Origin: Fodinibius sediminis
Lineage (GTDB): Bacteria; Bacteroidota; Rhodothermia; Balneolales; Balneolaceae
Assembly: GCF_900182555.1 (NCBI RefSeq)
Contig: NZ_FXTH01000022.1
Coordinates: forward strand, 1-53,131
Direction: 5' to 3'
Length of the DNA stretch: 53,131 nt
Made by a program: the position numbers and the translations under genes. Shown one piece after another: positions 16,613-51,765 of the stretch (positions within the stretch are counted from its first letter, which is position 1; each line of letters begins with the position of its first letter). The notes under the pieces were generated by a model, which worked only from the letters and a program-made list of their open reading frames with translations, was not told the DNA's origin and did no database searches.

Positions 16613-17884
16613 ATGAAGAAACTATCATTCGTTTTATTGAGCATTTTTCTTCTACTTGGAACAACCCGTGTCTGGGCCCAGCAGCAGCAGGAGGAGTTGT
16701 CGGATTTTGAAATCCAGAAGAATTTCAAGGCCCAGTATCAGGAATTTAAGAATAAAGTTGACACGGTTGCCGTGGCCGACAGCGCCCAGGCAATATTGGA
16801 GGATGTCGCTTCATTTGATCAGGAATATCAATCGCACAAGGAGCTGCTTAATAAAGCGCTTTATCCAGATACCTACAGCCAGGTGATCGAGGAGTTGAAT
16901 CAGGCGGCGACGCTGGCAGCCAACCGCCTCCAGAAAATGGAACAGCAGGACGATCAGCTGACCACGCTGCAGCTTCGGCTGCTGGCCTACCAGGAACATG
17001 TTTTCCAGTTGACCCAGGAAGCCGATTCCCTGAAGCAGGCGATGCAGGAATCCATAGAAAGTGAAAAACAGTTGTCGGGCATGGTACGCAACTACCGGAG
17101 AAACCTGGAACAGCGCGATGAACTTGTGCTGGCCTTTATCGACTCCACCGTGGTGGCTTACCAGCAGATGGATCTCCAGGCCATTAGAGAGCTTGAAAAG
17201 ATGAATGCTAAAGCTCGTATCGATTCCGATGGAGATGCGCTCAAGATGATCCGCGACATTGCAGCTGAAAATGTTACCATCCTCGAAGAGAACAGCAGTA
17301 AATTGCGCCTCGAGGATTATATGCGGATGCAGACGGTTCAGCAGCGGTTTGAAGAGATGTGGAATCGCCTCGGAAATAAGATCGCAGAGGTCTACGGCGG
17401 AAGCGATTCGGAAGAGATCGCCAGTGAGGTGGATAGCAGAATCTCAGAGTGGGATCAAATGCTGCAGGAAAAGACCTTCGCCACATTGAACGACTCGCTG
17501 AGCGAACAGGGCCTCGCAGTCGGTAGCTTTAAGAATGCCGAGGAATTCAAAAACTCCCTTAACAGCTATCTGGACAGTGCCATCAAGGAGAGTAAAAGCG
17601 ATGCCTCCCAGGAAAACTATGAACACTATCAGACCTTCCAGGACTTCTGGAACCGGGTGGAACGACAGTGGAGCAGTCATTTTACAAATGCTGAACTCAT
17701 GACAAGCGCCGAGCTGGCTACTATTTCCGAAAAAACGGATCAATGGGCGCAGTATGCTGAGCCGGAATCCAACACGATGACGTACCTTCTCATACTTGCT
17801 GTTTTTGTGGTTCTCGTACTTGGAGGGTTGCTGGTGCGTGAAAAAACCAAAAGCAATAAGGACAGAGAGAATGAAGCATCATAA
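16613..17884 (+). CDS. Envelope coiled-coil protein with C-terminal transmembrane anchor
   Basis: The 423-residue protein starts with a signal peptide (cut after VWAQ). Long Glu/Gln/Lys-rich helices with heptad-like spacing cover most of residues 30-370. One strong transmembrane segment near the C-terminus (TYLLILAVFVVLVLGGLLV) precedes a charged tail, KTKSNKDRENEAS. The layout suggests a periplasmic helical domain anchored in the inner membrane with its tail in the cytoplasm. No catalytic motif or known family is recognised. It overlaps nothing and follows the lipoprotein gene by 2 nt. Confidence 0.6.
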   Translation: MKKLSFVLLSIFLLLGTTRVWAQQQQEELSDFEIQKNFKAQYQEFKNKVDTVAVADSAQAILEDVASFDQEYQSHKELLNKALYPDTYSQVIEELNQAATLAANRLQKMEQQDDQLTTLQLRLLAYQEHVFQLTQEADSLKQAMQESIESEKQLSGMVRNYRRNLEQRDELVLAFIDSTVVAYQQMDLQAIRELEKMNAKARIDSDGDALKMIRDIAAENVTILEENSSKLRLEDYMRMQTVQQRFEEMWNRLGNKIAEVYGGSDSEEIASEVDSRISEWDQMLQEKTFATLNDSLSEQGLAVGSFKNAEEFKNSLNSYLDSAIKESKSDASQENYEHYQTFQDFWNRVERQWSSHFTNAELMTSAELATISEKTDQWAQYAEPESNTMTYLLILAVFVVLVLGGLLVREKTKSNKDRENEAS

Positions 17885-26716: not shown

Positions 26717-27319
26717 TCAGTTGAATGAATTGTCTCCTGTACCAGTAGTGTCCTGACCGGTTGTAAAGGTGACATCCTCATCCGGAACATTGGCGGGAAT
26801 AATGCGATCGGGCACCACCCAGGCGTCAGGGTATTTTTGCTTGATTAGCTGGGTGAATGCAGCAGCCTTCTCTTTACTGTGAAAATCGCCGATATGCACC
26901 TTGTAGTAGGGCTGTTTGAAAAAAACGTATGCTTTGGGGTTATACGCCAGGGCTTCAGCTTCTATCCATTCCTGAAACTGACTTGAGATGGTATCGGCCT
27001 GCTGAACATCCCTTGTTGAAACGAGCTGGATACGATATCCCTGATACGGATTTCTGCTTACTGCAGACCCTGTGGAGGCTTCCTGGGTAAATACGGATGG
27101 AATCTCCACTTCGTCCGACTGCTGAAGATCGGCAAGGGCACTTCGATTTTCATCGAGCAGCTGTTGTAGAGCTCTGGCTTCTTCTTCCGTCATGCCTTCG
27201 TCGGCCATTTCGGCGTCGGAAGGTCCGCCGTCGGCTGCCTGGCGGGAAGTGGAACAGGCACTGAAAATAAAGGCGAAAGATAACAGTGAGATTGTTAAAT
27301 ACAGAGGGAGTTTGGTCAT
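26717..27319 (-). CDS. SPOR-domain lipoprotein
   Basis: The start at 27319 is preferred over 27334: it leaves 4 nt after the upstream gene and gives the signal peptide MTKLPLYLTISLLSFAFIFS followed by AC, a lipobox. An Asp/Glu/Ala-rich linker follows (AADGGPSDAEMADEGMTEEE), then a C-terminal SPOR domain (YQGYRIQLVSTRDVQQADTI, KVHIGDFHSKEKAAAFTQLI). SPOR domains bind denuded peptidoglycan. The gene is the last in the deoC-aldehyde dehydrogenase run, though it is functionally unrelated. Confidence 0.8.
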   Translation of the reverse strand: MTKLPLYLTISLLSFAFIFSACSTSRQAADGGPSDAEMADEGMTEEEARALQQLLDENRSALADLQQSDEVEIPSVFTQEASTGSAVSRNPYQGYRIQLVSTRDVQQADTISSQFQEWIEAEALAYNPKAYVFFKQPYYKVHIGDFHSKEKAAAFTQLIKQKYPDAWVVPDRIIPANVPDEDVTFTTGQDTTGTGDNSFN

Positions 27320-27323
27320 AATT

Positions 27324-28193
27324 TTAGAATCCAACTGGATGCCACGTTGTTTTAATTTCCTGAAAATCGGTAATAAAATAGGGAGATTTTGCTTCTTTAT
27401 CCTGCCAATCCTCCATGGGTTTGCGAATAATTCGTTTCACATTTAAAGCACCGTTTTCGTCAATTTGTTTCTGCTGCTGGACCTCGATGTCAGGATTGGT
27501 ATAAAAAAAGGCGTTAACATCCATATGCGAGGTCATGGGATCGAGCAGTTCTGTGCGGGAACCGGTCAGTATATTGACAACTCCAGCCGGAACATCAGAA
27601 GAATTCAGGACTTCCGCAAAGCTGATGGCACTGAGGGGATATGTTTCGGAGGCAAGTACTACACAGCTATTTCCTCCTGTGATCACCGGAGCGATCACAG
27701 AAACCAATCCGAGCAGGGGTTGTTCTTCCGGAGCCCAAATAGTGACGACCCCGGTAGGCTCTGGAAGAGAAAAATTGAAATGAGAGCTTGCCACAGGGTT
27801 AATACTGCCGAATACCTGCTGGTATTTGTCTGACCAACCTGCATAATAAATAAGACGGTCAATGGATGATTCTACCTCGGCAACAGCCCTTTTGGCTTTG
27901 TACCCAGTGCGTTCAAGTTCTTCTGTGAACTGGCCTTTCCGTGTTTCAAGCATCTCGGCAATGCGATAGAGAATTTGTCCGCGGTTGTAGGCGGTTCGGT
28001 CGCTCCATCCCGGGAAGGAGCCGCGGGCTGCCACTACAGCCCTGCGAACATCCTTGCGCGAACACTGGCAGGCATTGGCAAGAATATTTCCCTCCCGGTC
28101 ATATACTTTGTAATGGCGACCTGACTCGGTTCGCGGGAATGCTCCATCTATATAGGTCTTGTATGTTTTCAATACGTTAACTCGATCTGGCAT
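27324..28193 (-). CDS. Half-length aldehyde dehydrogenase-like protein lacking the catalytic domain
   Basis: At 289 residues it covers only the N-terminal, NAD-binding part of the ALDH fold: TYIDGAFPRTESGRHYKVYD, an alpha/beta Rossmann-like section with GVVTIWAPEEQPLLGLVSVI, and GVVNILTGSRTELLDP. The region that would hold the catalytic Cys is absent, and the chain ends with a unique tail (KSPYFITDFQEIKTTW). It has its own start and an intact frame, so it is not simply a broken gene. It lies 54 nt after a full-length ALDH gene. Together they resemble the two domains of ALDH16. Confidence 0.85.
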   Translation of the reverse strand: MPDRVNVLKTYKTYIDGAFPRTESGRHYKVYDREGNILANACQCSRKDVRRAVVAARGSFPGWSDRTAYNRGQILYRIAEMLETRKGQFTEELERTGYKAKRAVAEVESSIDRLIYYAGWSDKYQQVFGSINPVASSHFNFSLPEPTGVVTIWAPEEQPLLGLVSVIAPVITGGNSCVVLASETYPLSAISFAEVLNSSDVPAGVVNILTGSRTELLDPMTSHMDVNAFFYTNPDIEVQQQKQIDENGALNVKRIIRKPMEDWQDKEAKSPYFITDFQEIKTTWHPVGF

Positions 28194-28247
28194 GACATGA
28201 ATAAATTGGGTTAATACATCGTCAATTTAACTGAAAGGTGATGGATA

Positions 28248-29771
28248 TTAGCCCGGTACAAGCTCTACATAGGGATAGAGTCCGTGTAATCCCCCCTCGC
28301 GGCCCTGGCCGCTTTCCTTGTAGCCGCCAAAGGGAGAAGTGGGGTCAAAATGGTTATAGGTGTTTGCCCAGACTACCCCGCTGCGAATTTTGCTTCCCAC
28401 CTTGAAAATTTTGGATCCCTTGTCGGTCCAGACCCCGCCGGCCAGTCCATAGGGCGTATTGTTGGCTTTCTCTATACCTTCTTCTGGTGTTCGAAAGGTC
28501 TGGATCGTTAATACCGGACCAAATATTTCCTCCCGCACAATACGGTTGGACTGGCTGACATTGCTAAAGAGGGTAGGGCGGCAGAAGTAGCCCTTTTCGG
28601 GAAGAGTGCACGAGCTCTGGTACATTTCTGCACCTTCCTCGACCCCCAATTCAAGATACTCGCTGATCTTGTTGTATTGCTGCTCGGAATTGATAGCGCC
28701 GATATCTGTATTCTTGTCAAGTGGATCACCCACAATGAGCGTTTCCATCCGGTCGCGCAGTTTCTGTAATACGCGGTCGGCAATACCTTCCTGTACCAGC
28801 AGGCGGGAGCCGGCACAACAAACATGCCCCTGATTAAAGAAAATGGCATTGATGATTCCCTCAACCGCCTGGTCGACGGGAGCGTCATCAAATATCATAT
28901 TGGGACCTTTGCCGCCCAGTTCCAGGGTGTACTTTTTATCGGTTCCGGCCAGTGATTCCATAATTATTTTTCCGACCTCTGTTGAACCGGTAAATGCAAT
29001 CTTGTCAATATCGTTGTGGTTGACGATCAATGAACCCGTTTGTCCGGTACCGGTGACGATATTGACGACGCCCTCGGGCAACCCGGCATCCTGGCATAAC
29101 TCGGCAAATTTAAGAGCCGTCAGCGAAGTAGTTTCAGCAGGTTTTAAGACCACCGTATTTCCGGTTGCCAGAGCCGGGGCCACTTTCCATGCCAGCATAA
29201 GCAGCGGGAAATTCCACGGGATAATTTGTCCGGCCACACCGAGTGGTCTTGCTTTCCTGCCGGGAAAGGCATAATCCAGTTTGTCGGCCCAGCCGGCATA
29301 ATAGAAAAATTGGGCCGCAGCCAGCGGGATATCCACATCGCGTGCCTCCCGGATGGGTTTGCCTCCGTCCATTGTTTCAATTATGGCAAACTCCCGCGCC
29401 CGTTCTTGAATTAGTCGTGCCAGCCGAAAGATATACTTGCCCCGATCGGCGGCTTTCATCTCCGACCACGTTTTATTATAGGCTTTGCGGGCAGCTGCCA
29501 CGGCCTTGTCTACATCCTGCTGGGTAGCCTCTGCAACCGACGACAATGTCTCCTCGGTAGCGGGATTTACCGAAGGAAGGTACCGGCCTTTCTCCGGCTT
29601 CTGAAAATGCCCTTCGATAAAAAGGTCATATTGCTCCCTGAGATCAATCTGATCGCTGCTCTGGGGAGCCGCATCATATTTCCAGGGTCCGTTGAAATCA
29701 AGTCCGGGGACGGAATTCCCGGCTTTATTGGGCGTTGCGGCTTCTGTGCCGGTAGGTTCTTTTTCTGACAT
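28248..29771 (-). CDS. Aldehyde dehydrogenase (full length)
   Basis: The 507-residue NAD(P)-dependent dehydrogenase oxidises aldehydes to acids. Asn187 in IIPWNFPLLML, Glu284 in TLELGGKGPN and the nucleophile Cys318 in FNQGHVCCAGSR are present, as is the Rossmann loop FTGSTEVGK. An N-terminal extension of about 40 residues precedes the fold. It lies 55 nt downstream of deoC and upstream of the half-length ALDH, which suggests it handles acetaldehyde or a related product of deoxyribose 5-phosphate cleavage. The combined length with its neighbour (796) is close to ALDH16. Confidence 0.92.
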   Translation of the reverse strand: MSEKEPTGTEAATPNKAGNSVPGLDFNGPWKYDAAPQSSDQIDLREQYDLFIEGHFQKPEKGRYLPSVNPATEETLSSVAEATQQDVDKAVAAARKAYNKTWSEMKAADRGKYIFRLARLIQERAREFAIIETMDGGKPIREARDVDIPLAAAQFFYYAGWADKLDYAFPGRKARPLGVAGQIIPWNFPLLMLAWKVAPALATGNTVVLKPAETTSLTALKFAELCQDAGLPEGVVNIVTGTGQTGSLIVNHNDIDKIAFTGSTEVGKIIMESLAGTDKKYTLELGGKGPNMIFDDAPVDQAVEGIINAIFFNQGHVCCAGSRLLVQEGIADRVLQKLRDRMETLIVGDPLDKNTDIGAINSEQQYNKISEYLELGVEEGAEMYQSSCTLPEKGYFCRPTLFSNVSQSNRIVREEIFGPVLTIQTFRTPEEGIEKANNTPYGLAGGVWTDKGSKIFKVGSKIRSGVVWANTYNHFDPTSPFGGYKESGQGREGGLHGLYPYVELVPG

Positions 29772-29826
29772 AATAACTGAATTGGTTGGATCTAAAAAAC
29801 CGTGTTATCCGTAGCTGAGCGGTATC

Positions 29827-30726
29827 TTAATCATTACTGAAGTAATCGAGGCTCTGGTATACACCTGTTTTCTGCTTAACAATCTGCAAGAGCAGGTCGT
29901 TGGTGAGAGAACTGGCCCCGAATCGAAAGTAGTCGGGATGCAGCCAGTTGCCGCCGAGGGTTTCGTTGACCAGCACCAGGTATTGAATGGCCTGTTTTGC
30001 CTTGCGGATACCTCCGGCAGGCTTCATGCCTACCATATGTCCTGTACGGTAATAATAATCACGGATAGCTTCGAGCATAACAAGTGTTACAGGCTGTGTT
30101 GCTGCAGGTTTTACCTTGCCGGTTGAGGTCTTGATAAAGTCAGCACCCGCATGCATGGCCAGGTCACTTGCTTTGCGGATATTCCCGTAGGTCTGAAGCT
30201 CACCTGTTTCCAATATGACTTTGAGGTGAGCTTTACCGACAATTTCCTTGACCGCTGCTATCTCATCAAACACATAGTTATAATTACCCTCGAGGAATTC
30301 GCCGCGGGAAATGACCATGTCGACCTCGTCGGCTCCGTCTTCAATAGCCTGCCGGGTTTCTTCCAGTTTTACTTCCAATGGCGCCATGCCGCTGGGAAAA
30401 GCCGTTGCAACACTGGCTACATGAATGCTGGTGCCACGAAGCGCTTTTTCTGCGACACTCACCAGCCTGGGATATACGCATACCGCAGCGACGGTGGGAA
30501 GGTCGGGTTGGTAAGGGTGGGGTCTTTTGGCCTTCTGGCAGAGCTGGATAACTTTTCCAGCAGTATCCATACCTTCGAGGGTTGTCAGATCTACCATGCT
30601 CAGGGCCATTTCCAACGCCTTGATTTTGGACTCCTTTTTAATGCTTCGACTGTTGAGCCGTGCGACTCGCTCCTCCACTCCGACCTGGTCAATGGGGGGA
30701 GACTGACTGTAATCAGGAATATTCAC
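29827..30726 (-). CDS. deoC: Deoxyribose-phosphate aldolase
   Basis: The 299-residue class I aldolase splits 2-deoxyribose 5-phosphate into acetaldehyde and glyceraldehyde 3-phosphate. Schiff-base Lys199 is in ADFIKTSTGK and the second lysine, K235, in VGMKPAGGIR. EVDMVISRGEF and ILETGEL are also typical. The N-terminal 60 residues are an extension beyond short bacterial DeoC, as in the longer eukaryote-like group. It opens the run that continues with two aldehyde dehydrogenase genes, which fits conversion of released acetaldehyde to acetate. Confidence 0.94.
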   Translation of the reverse strand: MNIPDYSQSPPIDQVGVEERVARLNSRSIKKESKIKALEMALSMVDLTTLEGMDTAGKVIQLCQKAKRPHPYQPDLPTVAAVCVYPRLVSVAEKALRGTSIHVASVATAFPSGMAPLEVKLEETRQAIEDGADEVDMVISRGEFLEGNYNYVFDEIAAVKEIVGKAHLKVILETGELQTYGNIRKASDLAMHAGADFIKTSTGKVKPAATQPVTLVMLEAIRDYYYRTGHMVGMKPAGGIRKAKQAIQYLVLVNETLGGNWLHPDYFRFGASSLTNDLLLQIVKQKTGVYQSLDYFSND

Positions 30727-50469: not shown

Positions 50470-51765
50470 TTAGCTGTTCTCCAATCGGAAAAGCTGTTTT
50501 GAGAAACTGTTTCCAGGAGAGGGCAGATAATGGTAGGACATCCCTAAAAACAGCCAGGTGGGGAGGTAGGTATATTCTGTGACCGCTATCAGCATAGTCA
50601 CAAGGATAATGATCAGTGCTGCTTTAAGCCCGAATTCTTTGGATGTACGGCCCAGGATCAGGATTGGATAAGCAAAGACAGTCAGGAAAACCGTTAACCC
50701 CAGGAGTCCGTTATTGACAAGTATGGTTGAAAAGAAATCTGTGGATCGTATATAGCCGAAGCCGAGTCCGAATATCTTGGTCGGCAGTGGGGCTTCCCAC
50801 CAAAAGGTTAGGGAGTTTATCATGTTAGATAGGCGTACATTACCCGAGATAGAGGCGCCGGAAAGCTTTTTGAGAATCAGCTCATTAAAAACGGAGAAAA
50901 CAGCTTGATACTTTATGATGGTAATCAATACGATGCCTGCTCCCCCCGCGACAAGATATTTCCAGCCCACTTTTCCACTGAAGACAAGAACGACAAGATA
51001 AGTGAATATACCCAGAATAGCCGTTGTTGAGGTAGAGAACAGCAGGGCCAGCGTCAAAATACCCCCGATAAGATATTTTTGTTTATGAAGGGCCAGCACC
51101 CAGTAGGGCAATACCGTAAAGGCAAACATGGAGGCTTCACCCGTAAGGCTTTTCATTCGCAGGGTCGAGAGGCCGGCAATATTCATAACCTGGGTTGAGC
51201 TTCCGAAATAGCGTTCGTTGAATACGCGGTTAGACAAAAAATCACCGGATGTGCCCGTAAGCCAGAAATAGAAAACTTCGTAAAAGCCGTAGGCGACCAG
51301 CAGCAGAATGCCGGCAAAAATATAGGGATCCCAAGAGGGATGATACCATTTGCAAACAAATAAGAAGGTTAGCAGGCAGGCCGCCAAATAGAGGCTTTGG
51401 GTAAAAAGGGTTGGGCGGAGCACAAACTTCCGGGTGAATGAAAGGGGATCGACCAGGGGCAGAGAGGATAAATCCATGTGTCCATACAGCGACAGCAGGA
51501 ACTGGCTGACCAGGTTGAGGGTGATATAGGCAATGGCGATAAGTAGCAGCAGGTAAAAATACTCCTTGATCTCCCTTACCGTTGCGAAGGCAACAATAAG
51601 AGGAACGGAGAGGAAGGCCATCATGTAAGCAGGGGTTGTACCCTGAATGAAAGGAACCAGCAAAACGGATGTAATGGGAAGAACCAGGGCCCAGCATTTG
51701 AAAAAGGTATCGATCACCCGTCGTCCTGTTTCAGTTTTATGGTATGTTTTAACCGGGTCGATCAT
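50470..51765 (-). CDS. O-antigen/capsule polymerase-like membrane protein (Wzy-like)
   Basis: The 431-residue protein has about ten to twelve membrane helices, including LPITSVLLVPFIQGTTPAYM, YILGLGFGYIRS-like loop residues (IFGLGFGYIRSTDFFS) before a late helix, and a large central loop. This topology and its place between an initiating sugar transferase and a glycosyltransferase fit a Wzy-like polymerase or O-antigen ligase. Sequence conservation in this class is very low, so the call is mostly from topology. The start overlaps the glycosyltransferase end by 4 nt. Confidence 0.75.
   Translation of the reverse strand: MIDPVKTYHKTETGRRVIDTFFKCWALVLPITSVLLVPFIQGTTPAYMMAFLSVPLIVAFATVREIKEYFYLLLLIAIAYITLNLVSQFLLSLYGHMDLSSLPLVDPLSFTRKFVLRPTLFTQSLYLAACLLTFLFVCKWYHPSWDPYIFAGILLLVAYGFYEVFYFWLTGTSGDFLSNRVFNERYFGSSTQVMNIAGLSTLRMKSLTGEASMFAFTVLPYWVLALHKQKYLIGGILTLALLFSTSTTAILGIFTYLVVLVFSGKVGWKYLVAGGAGIVLITIIKYQAVFSVFNELILKKLSGASISGNVRLSNMINSLTFWWEAPLPTKIFGLGFGYIRSTDFFSTILVNNGLLGLTVFLTVFAYPILILGRTSKEFGLKAALIIILVTMLIAVTEYTYLPTWLFLGMSYHYLPSPGNSFSKQLFRLENS

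Follow-up and report, generated by a model that had tools for sequence, protein, structure and literature searches.

A two-gene ALDH16-type aldehyde dehydrogenase encoded next to deoC in Fodinibius sediminis and its relatives

The 53,131-nucleotide stretch of Fodinibius sediminis DNA that we analysed (the window) carries a trio of genes, two of which very probably specify an ALDH16-type dehydrogenase in two subunits, which would dock as a classical aldehyde dehydrogenase (ALDH) dimer does and oxidise acetaldehyde derived from DeoC. The trio lies on the minus strand. Its first gene, deoC (29827..30726, 299 aa), encodes deoxyribose-phosphate aldolase, which releases acetaldehyde from 2-deoxyribose-5-phosphate. 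It is followed by the gene for the large, catalytic ALDH16 subunit (28248..29771, 507 aa) and by that for the small subunit (27324..28193, 289 aa), a separate C-terminal-domain protein without a catalytic domain, hereafter also called the half. The spacers between deoC and the ALDH gene and between the ALDH gene and the half are 55 and 54 nt, respectively. The nearest named relatives of the window belong to Fodinibius/Aliifodinibius (Balneolota).

These frames agree with an earlier note made from the letters alone, which had counted 507 + 289 = 796 residues and placed the pair after deoC. The aldolase gene scores 193 bits against NCBIfam TIGR00126 (cut-off 117) and is the only match to that family in the genome; its position directly beside the ALDH gene on the same strand is that of a deoxyribose-catabolic operon. 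A profile search also placed an acetyl-CoA synthetase, AcsA, above its cut-off elsewhere in the genome. The two ALDH16 genes share one frame in the window, with in-frame stops between them, and by eye no Shine–Dalgarno-like stretch is evident before the ATG of the half in the window. The span that the earlier note gave to the system, 26717-30726, was too wide, as it takes in a SPOR-domain lipoprotein gene that the note did not mention (ORF 26717-27334, minus strand, apparent ATG at 27319 by eye) and that lies outside the ALDH16 system. Judged by eye, this gene starts 4 nt past the stop of the half, and a relative of it also follows the half in loci L038-L043, L098, L099, L106 and L108. Two further ORFs in the window have no Pfam match: 16613-17884 (plus strand, 423 aa) and 50470-51765 (minus strand, 431 aa).

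Searching all PDB sequences with phmmer, we found the ALDH16 structure 6mvr as the first match of the large protein (residues 31-475; 553 bits for the whole chain, next match 444 bits), and Pfam Aldedh covers the protein nearly from end to end. The intact Cys, Glu and Asn claimed by the earlier note are in place: the oxyanion residue Asn187 (29211..29213), the general base Glu284 (28920..28922) and the catalytic thiol Cys318 (28818..28820), all on the minus strand. We take these, with their roles, to be Asn169, Glu268 and Cys302 in ALDH2 numbering. Glu and Cys are invariant in 104 of 104 large-subunit rows, an alignment that includes one one-chain row (L211), and Asn occupies its column in 102 of the 104, the other two holding an X and a gap; all three residues are kept in 28 of 28 one-chain sequences. 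The NAD-site lysine is kept in 103 of the 104 rows, the remainder being a gap or X, and a wider alignment shows it in 101 of the 102 two-gene large rows other than the window's, with one Q. Having all four residues of the active and NAD sites, the large protein is predicted to be an active ALDH.

What its alignments show to be missing from the large subunit is the greater part of the flap, together with the last strand, both of which classical ALDHs use to oligomerise. The segment between the GWxDK and PxGV motifs, presumably the site of the oligomerisation flap in classical ALDHs, is only 11 aa long in the window protein (residues 165-175; 29247..29279, minus strand). Among 103 two-gene large subunits, that of the window included, 102 have 11-12 aa here, the exception being L110, an ORF truncated at an edge; all 29 one-chain catalytic parts have 9 aa, whereas in 20 other ALDHs the segment runs to 15-23 aa, with a median of 19. 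Past the GRE motif, two-gene large subunits continue for a median of 13 aa (range 12-48; motif present in 101 of 102 rows), and other ALDHs for 18-31 aa, ending in (T)ExKTVxV-like strands (motif present in 9 of 20). One-chain ALDH16 proteins run on for 34-42 aa from the GRE motif to the C-domain (measured in the 6 of 28 rows with the motif), whereas the two-gene form has a stop and a new start.

The small subunit holds the missing parts. Its flap segment is of full length (residues 124-145, 22 aa; 27759..27824, minus strand); it is 22 aa long in 107 of 107 halves and 19-20 aa in one-chain C-domains, and the model of the small subunit (pTM 0.87) places strands in it at 130-133 and 138-146. The protein ends in the motif EIKTTWHP (residues 279-286; 27336..27359, minus strand), modelled as a last strand at 278-286; K[TN]xWxP occurs in the last 30 aa of 106 of 107 halves and 28 of 29 one-chain C-domains. 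This ExKTTWHP end is the counterpart of the classical (T)ExKTVxV strand. The earlier note had described a protein keeping only the NAD-binding half; the NAD-binding half is indeed there, but 'only' was wrong, given the flap and C-terminal strand, and the half itself no longer has the lysine of the NAD site. Its place is taken by Leu, Ile, Val or Ala in 107 of 107 halves, and the lysine is likewise absent from 29 of 29 one-chain C-domains, so that the small subunit, like the second domain of ALDH16 generally, is predicted to be unable to bind NAD normally. In the counts of flap, lysine and end motif, L211 and L221, both of the one-chain type, were first grouped with the two-gene rows and were moved in a recount.

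With its Rossmann core, protruding flap and missing catalytic domain, the small protein has the make-up of an ALDH16-type C-terminal domain. Its first phmmer match among all PDB sequences is 6mvr residues 501-766, at 224 bits, with the next at 97. Foldseek ranked 6mvs first for the model (TMq 0.88, rmsd 1.9, 38% identity), with other ALDHs at TMq of about 0.8. By VIA-align, ALDH16 chains and other ALDHs tie (Z of 36.3 vs 36.8), so the fold alone does not pick out ALDH16, while the sequence does; of the better match to a non-ALDH16 family that the earlier note had named as a counter-sign, the sequence comparison shows the opposite and the fold a draw. The VIA-align matches span classical ALDH ranges such as 16-497 with ~275 residues aligned, which we interpret as an alignment of the NAD-binding domain and the terminal strand that passes over the catalytic domain. 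The half is under strong purifying selection. Its NG86 dN/dS values are 0.118/2.408 against L038 and 0.109/1.56 against L039 (not computable against L040 and L043), and those between congeners are 0.023/0.943 and 0.036/0.816.

To see how widely this arrangement occurs, we surveyed genomes of five phyla. Within the window's own phylum, the stand-alone half (at least 49% identity) was found in 54 of 296 genomes and the two-gene large protein (at least 63% identity) in the same 54, the two sets being identical with no orphan; the C-domain lay within a frame of 813-1061 aa in four of the 296 (G179, G096, G243 and G254). The other surveys were centred on genomes picked for carrying the gene. They gave one two-gene genome (the centre genome itself) and 39 one-chain genomes among 349 in the phylum of G305; eight and five among 119 in that of G299, where G754 was counted as one-chain although its C-domain match is partial; nine two-gene genomes and one truncated one-chain-like frame among 115 in that of G300; and ten two-gene and no one-chain genomes among 46 in that of G302. 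Scoring covered the first 5-8 candidates of each genome in both searches of the 296 genomes and in the phylum of G305. A frame longer than the half was not always a fusion: G688 and G678 proved to be two-gene. No genome listed in the five surveys had both forms. The two-gene genomes of the other four phyla, together with G297, make up 29 further genomes with the half, and 29 of 29 also hold the large gene (58-74% identity), a co-occurrence scored there in one direction, from half to large gene. With 54 of 296 genomes in the window's phylum and strong purifying selection, the stand-alone half is well beyond chance.

Both genes are also kept where they are unlinked. They lie on different contigs in G013, G034, G131, G297 and G707, and ~7 kb apart in G271, where deoC is one gene beyond the ALDH; their joint retention in unlinked genomes points to a partnership rather than mere operon history. 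In two of these genomes, the half is seen apart from deoC and ALDH at L281 6609-7481 (G034), where a DUF58 gene and a beta-lactamase-family gene come after it, and at L282 3931-4884 (G013).

Gene order was examined in 80 named loci, the best 80 of 96 matches to the window's own protein and thus a set that favours close relatives; this and the other locus sets share at least one genome (L038 and L243), and duplicates were kept. In 72 of the 80 the ALDH gene immediately precedes the half at no more than 203 nt, overlapping it by 4 nt in seven loci; in three it lies farther off (L038, L061 and L106). ORFs intervene between ALDH and half at L038 4356-4973 (Fodinibius salsisoli), where the product presumably resembles a REP-associated transposase, and at L061 3985-4554, where we take it to be HNH-endonuclease-like. 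No ALDH is visible in the remaining five, four of which have <400 nt upstream; the fifth, L055, has 3.4 kb, and its genome encodes a 69%-identical ALDH on another contig.

Of the 88 two-gene loci that offer 1300 nt or more of room, 86 have deoC upstream on the same strand, as have 7 of 12 loci with less. The same holds for one-chain ALDH16 in 28 of 28 loci, 26 of them within 343 nt, with longer distances at L201 (846 nt) and L209 (2024 nt). By contrast, deoC was near other ALDHs in none of 16 neighbourhoods, in a test that finds it in 29 of 29 one-chain loci. The coupling is not universal: deoC is missing at the two-gene loci L061 and L075, at L223 (the catalytic gene of the L055 genome) and near the catalytic genes of G013, G034 and G131. 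Several phyla show the order deoC–ALDH–half, an actinomycete example being Nonomuraea gerenzanensis (L284 2455-5840), a span for which the gene table of the plasmid collection lists no feature. The Sinorhizobium meliloti one-chain locus reads DeoR regulator, deoC, ALDH16 and 'fucose-binding protein', and that of Nitratireductor deoC, ALDH and RbsD/FucU; ABC transporter genes lie nearby. L221 315-1556 has a one-chain-type C-domain, but of the catalytic domain just the final 91 residues align, and the catalytic N-terminal part was not found elsewhere in this 3.6-kb locus, which stops at a contig end.

A catalytic-domain tree of 32 two-gene, 28 one-chain and 10 other ALDH rows, the 32 drawn at <80% identity from 101 two-gene pairs, sets each group on its own side of a branch (support 100/99, 100/99 and 100/100, respectively), in 100% of 200 bootstrap trees. 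A quick tree with 20 outgroup ALDHs gave the same division, uniting the large subunit and one-chain ALDH16 in one clade apart from all 20, and the C-domain tree likewise separates two-gene from one-chain forms. Pairwise distances of the two subunits correlate (Mantel r 0.76 for two-gene and 0.83 for one-chain forms; 0 of 2000 permutations as high), a co-variation partly due to shared host ancestry. The trees need one change of state and show no direction, be it fusion or fission. Tentatively, and at rather less than even odds in our judgement, ALDH16 may have begun as an asymmetric two-subunit ALDH for acetaldehyde removal during deoxyribose catabolism, made of a live subunit stripped of its oligomerisation parts and a dead half-subunit supplying them; the one-chain form, possibly including animal ALDH16A1, would then be a later fusion.

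The two subunits split the parts of a classical ALDH between them, and this complementarity is an argument for an obligate hetero-oligomer that mimics the classical dimer or tetramer. Structure prediction did not support a complex. Since the two genes share a frame, the stops between them could be read as Ser to give an 815-aa read-through, which was modelled with AlphaFold2 from 63 alignment rows. Each part folded (overall pTM 0.59), but the small domain was not placed as in 6mvs (overall rmsd 21 Å, TMq 0.52), and VIA-align covered the large part alone. Two larger alignments (A3 and A4) were set aside, as their half rows were just 31-43% identical to the first row, which we read as half rows laid onto the large domain. 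From the published description of ALDH16 and the reciprocal anatomy, we infer that the small subunit most likely docks on the large one where a second protomer would sit in a classical ALDH dimer, with its flap completing the sheet of the large subunit. Such an alpha–beta unit would hold one active site, and two heterodimers would probably form an alpha2–beta2 body imitating the classical tetramer in the manner of the one-chain ALDH16 dimer. Because deoC stands beside both two-gene and one-chain ALDH16 and beside none of the 16 other ALDHs, oxidation of acetaldehyde during deoxyribose catabolism is its likely role: acetaldehyde from 2-deoxyribose-5-phosphate would be converted to acetate, and activation by acetyl-CoA synthetase would complete a route to acetyl-CoA.

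Three other readings deserve weighing. The large protein might be an ordinary ALDH that is self-sufficient, with the small one acting independently as a regulator or cofactor sensor and sharing no more than the operon, as the complete set of catalytic residues examined and the five genomes with the genes on different contigs would allow. We consider this unlikely: the flap of the large protein is mostly gone and its last strand is absent, precisely the two parts that the small one retains; none of 107 halves has the NAD-site lysine; co-occurrence in the phylum is 54 of 54 even where the genes are unlinked; and one-chain homologues join the same two parts. Those homologues, and the shared frame with its in-frame stops, could instead suggest that the window holds a one-chain ALDH16 broken by frameshift, decay or assembly error. 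This we regard as practically refuted by the conservation of the two-gene form, which has stand-alone frames in other phyla as well as in 54 of the 296 genomes of this one, forms its own clade and includes a half under purifying selection; moreover, the relative frame of the two genes varies (39, 18 and 14 of 71 loci). Nor is a conserved read-through signal evident at 16 same-frame loci, where TAA, TAG and TGA all serve as stops.

The earlier note had also suggested a channel-type enzyme. Such an enzyme would pass acetaldehyde between active sites, possibly in complex with DeoC. Although deoC is linked in almost all loci with room for it, the small subunit has no catalytic domain and hence offers no second active site, and no DeoC–ALDH fusion was evident among the loci laid out. 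We found nothing in support of channelling and consider it highly improbable. The broader proposal of that note, a two-gene ALDH16 associated with DeoC, is strongly supported by the best PDB match of both proteins, the complete co-occurrence in the phylum and the deoC linkage of both forms; an ALDH16-type dehydrogenase in two subunits is the reading we prefer.

The closest characterised protein is the ALDH16 of Loktanella sp., represented by structures 6mvr, 6mvs, 6mvt and 6mvu; two ALDH16 subunits mimic the classical ALDH tetramer, as a review describes in its account of the family (PMC8160307). It has the same two parts in the same order, is the best sequence match of both window proteins and the best Foldseek match of the small one, and has the active Cys, Glu and Asn; its one-chain relatives adjoin deoC, and the flap segment of their catalytic part is just as short. 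The match of a one-chain relative in the sister clade to 6mvr runs from end to end (1237 bits). The Loktanella protein, however, is one chain of 767 aa where F. sediminis has two genes, and the two forms are separate clades; as its parts are not in one polypeptide, the system described here is a two-gene variant and no one-chain member of ALDH16. Human ALDH16A1, which we compare by description, shares the family name and is described as lacking the catalytic residues (PMC10650815), whereas the large subunit of the window keeps them. Classical enzymes of the ALDH1/ALDH2 type resemble the large subunit in fold and catalytic machinery, at no more than 48% identity to 20 outgroup ALDHs, but have in one polypeptide the flap, last strand and catalytic domain that are divided here. 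Among the literature matches listed, a scope that excluded the primary structure paper, we recognised no treatment of a two-gene ALDH16 or of ALDH16 with deoC, and all matches on ALDH16 and deoxyribose were unrelated. The key structure paper on ALDH16 is reportedly that of Liu and Tanner (2019). We know of no agreed natural substrate for ALDH16 and, to our knowledge, no two-gene member has been assayed with acetaldehyde.

ALDH16 is poorly understood and carries an extra, dead domain. The two-gene form allows this dead part to be taken away, exchanged or varied in dose with no need for protein engineering. With the flap lost on one side and the catalytic domain on the other, the pair makes a clear case of a dimer interface turned into the sole task of a subunit, and the near-constant deoC neighbour in the sampled two-gene and one-chain bacteria provides a concrete metabolic hypothesis for ALDH16.
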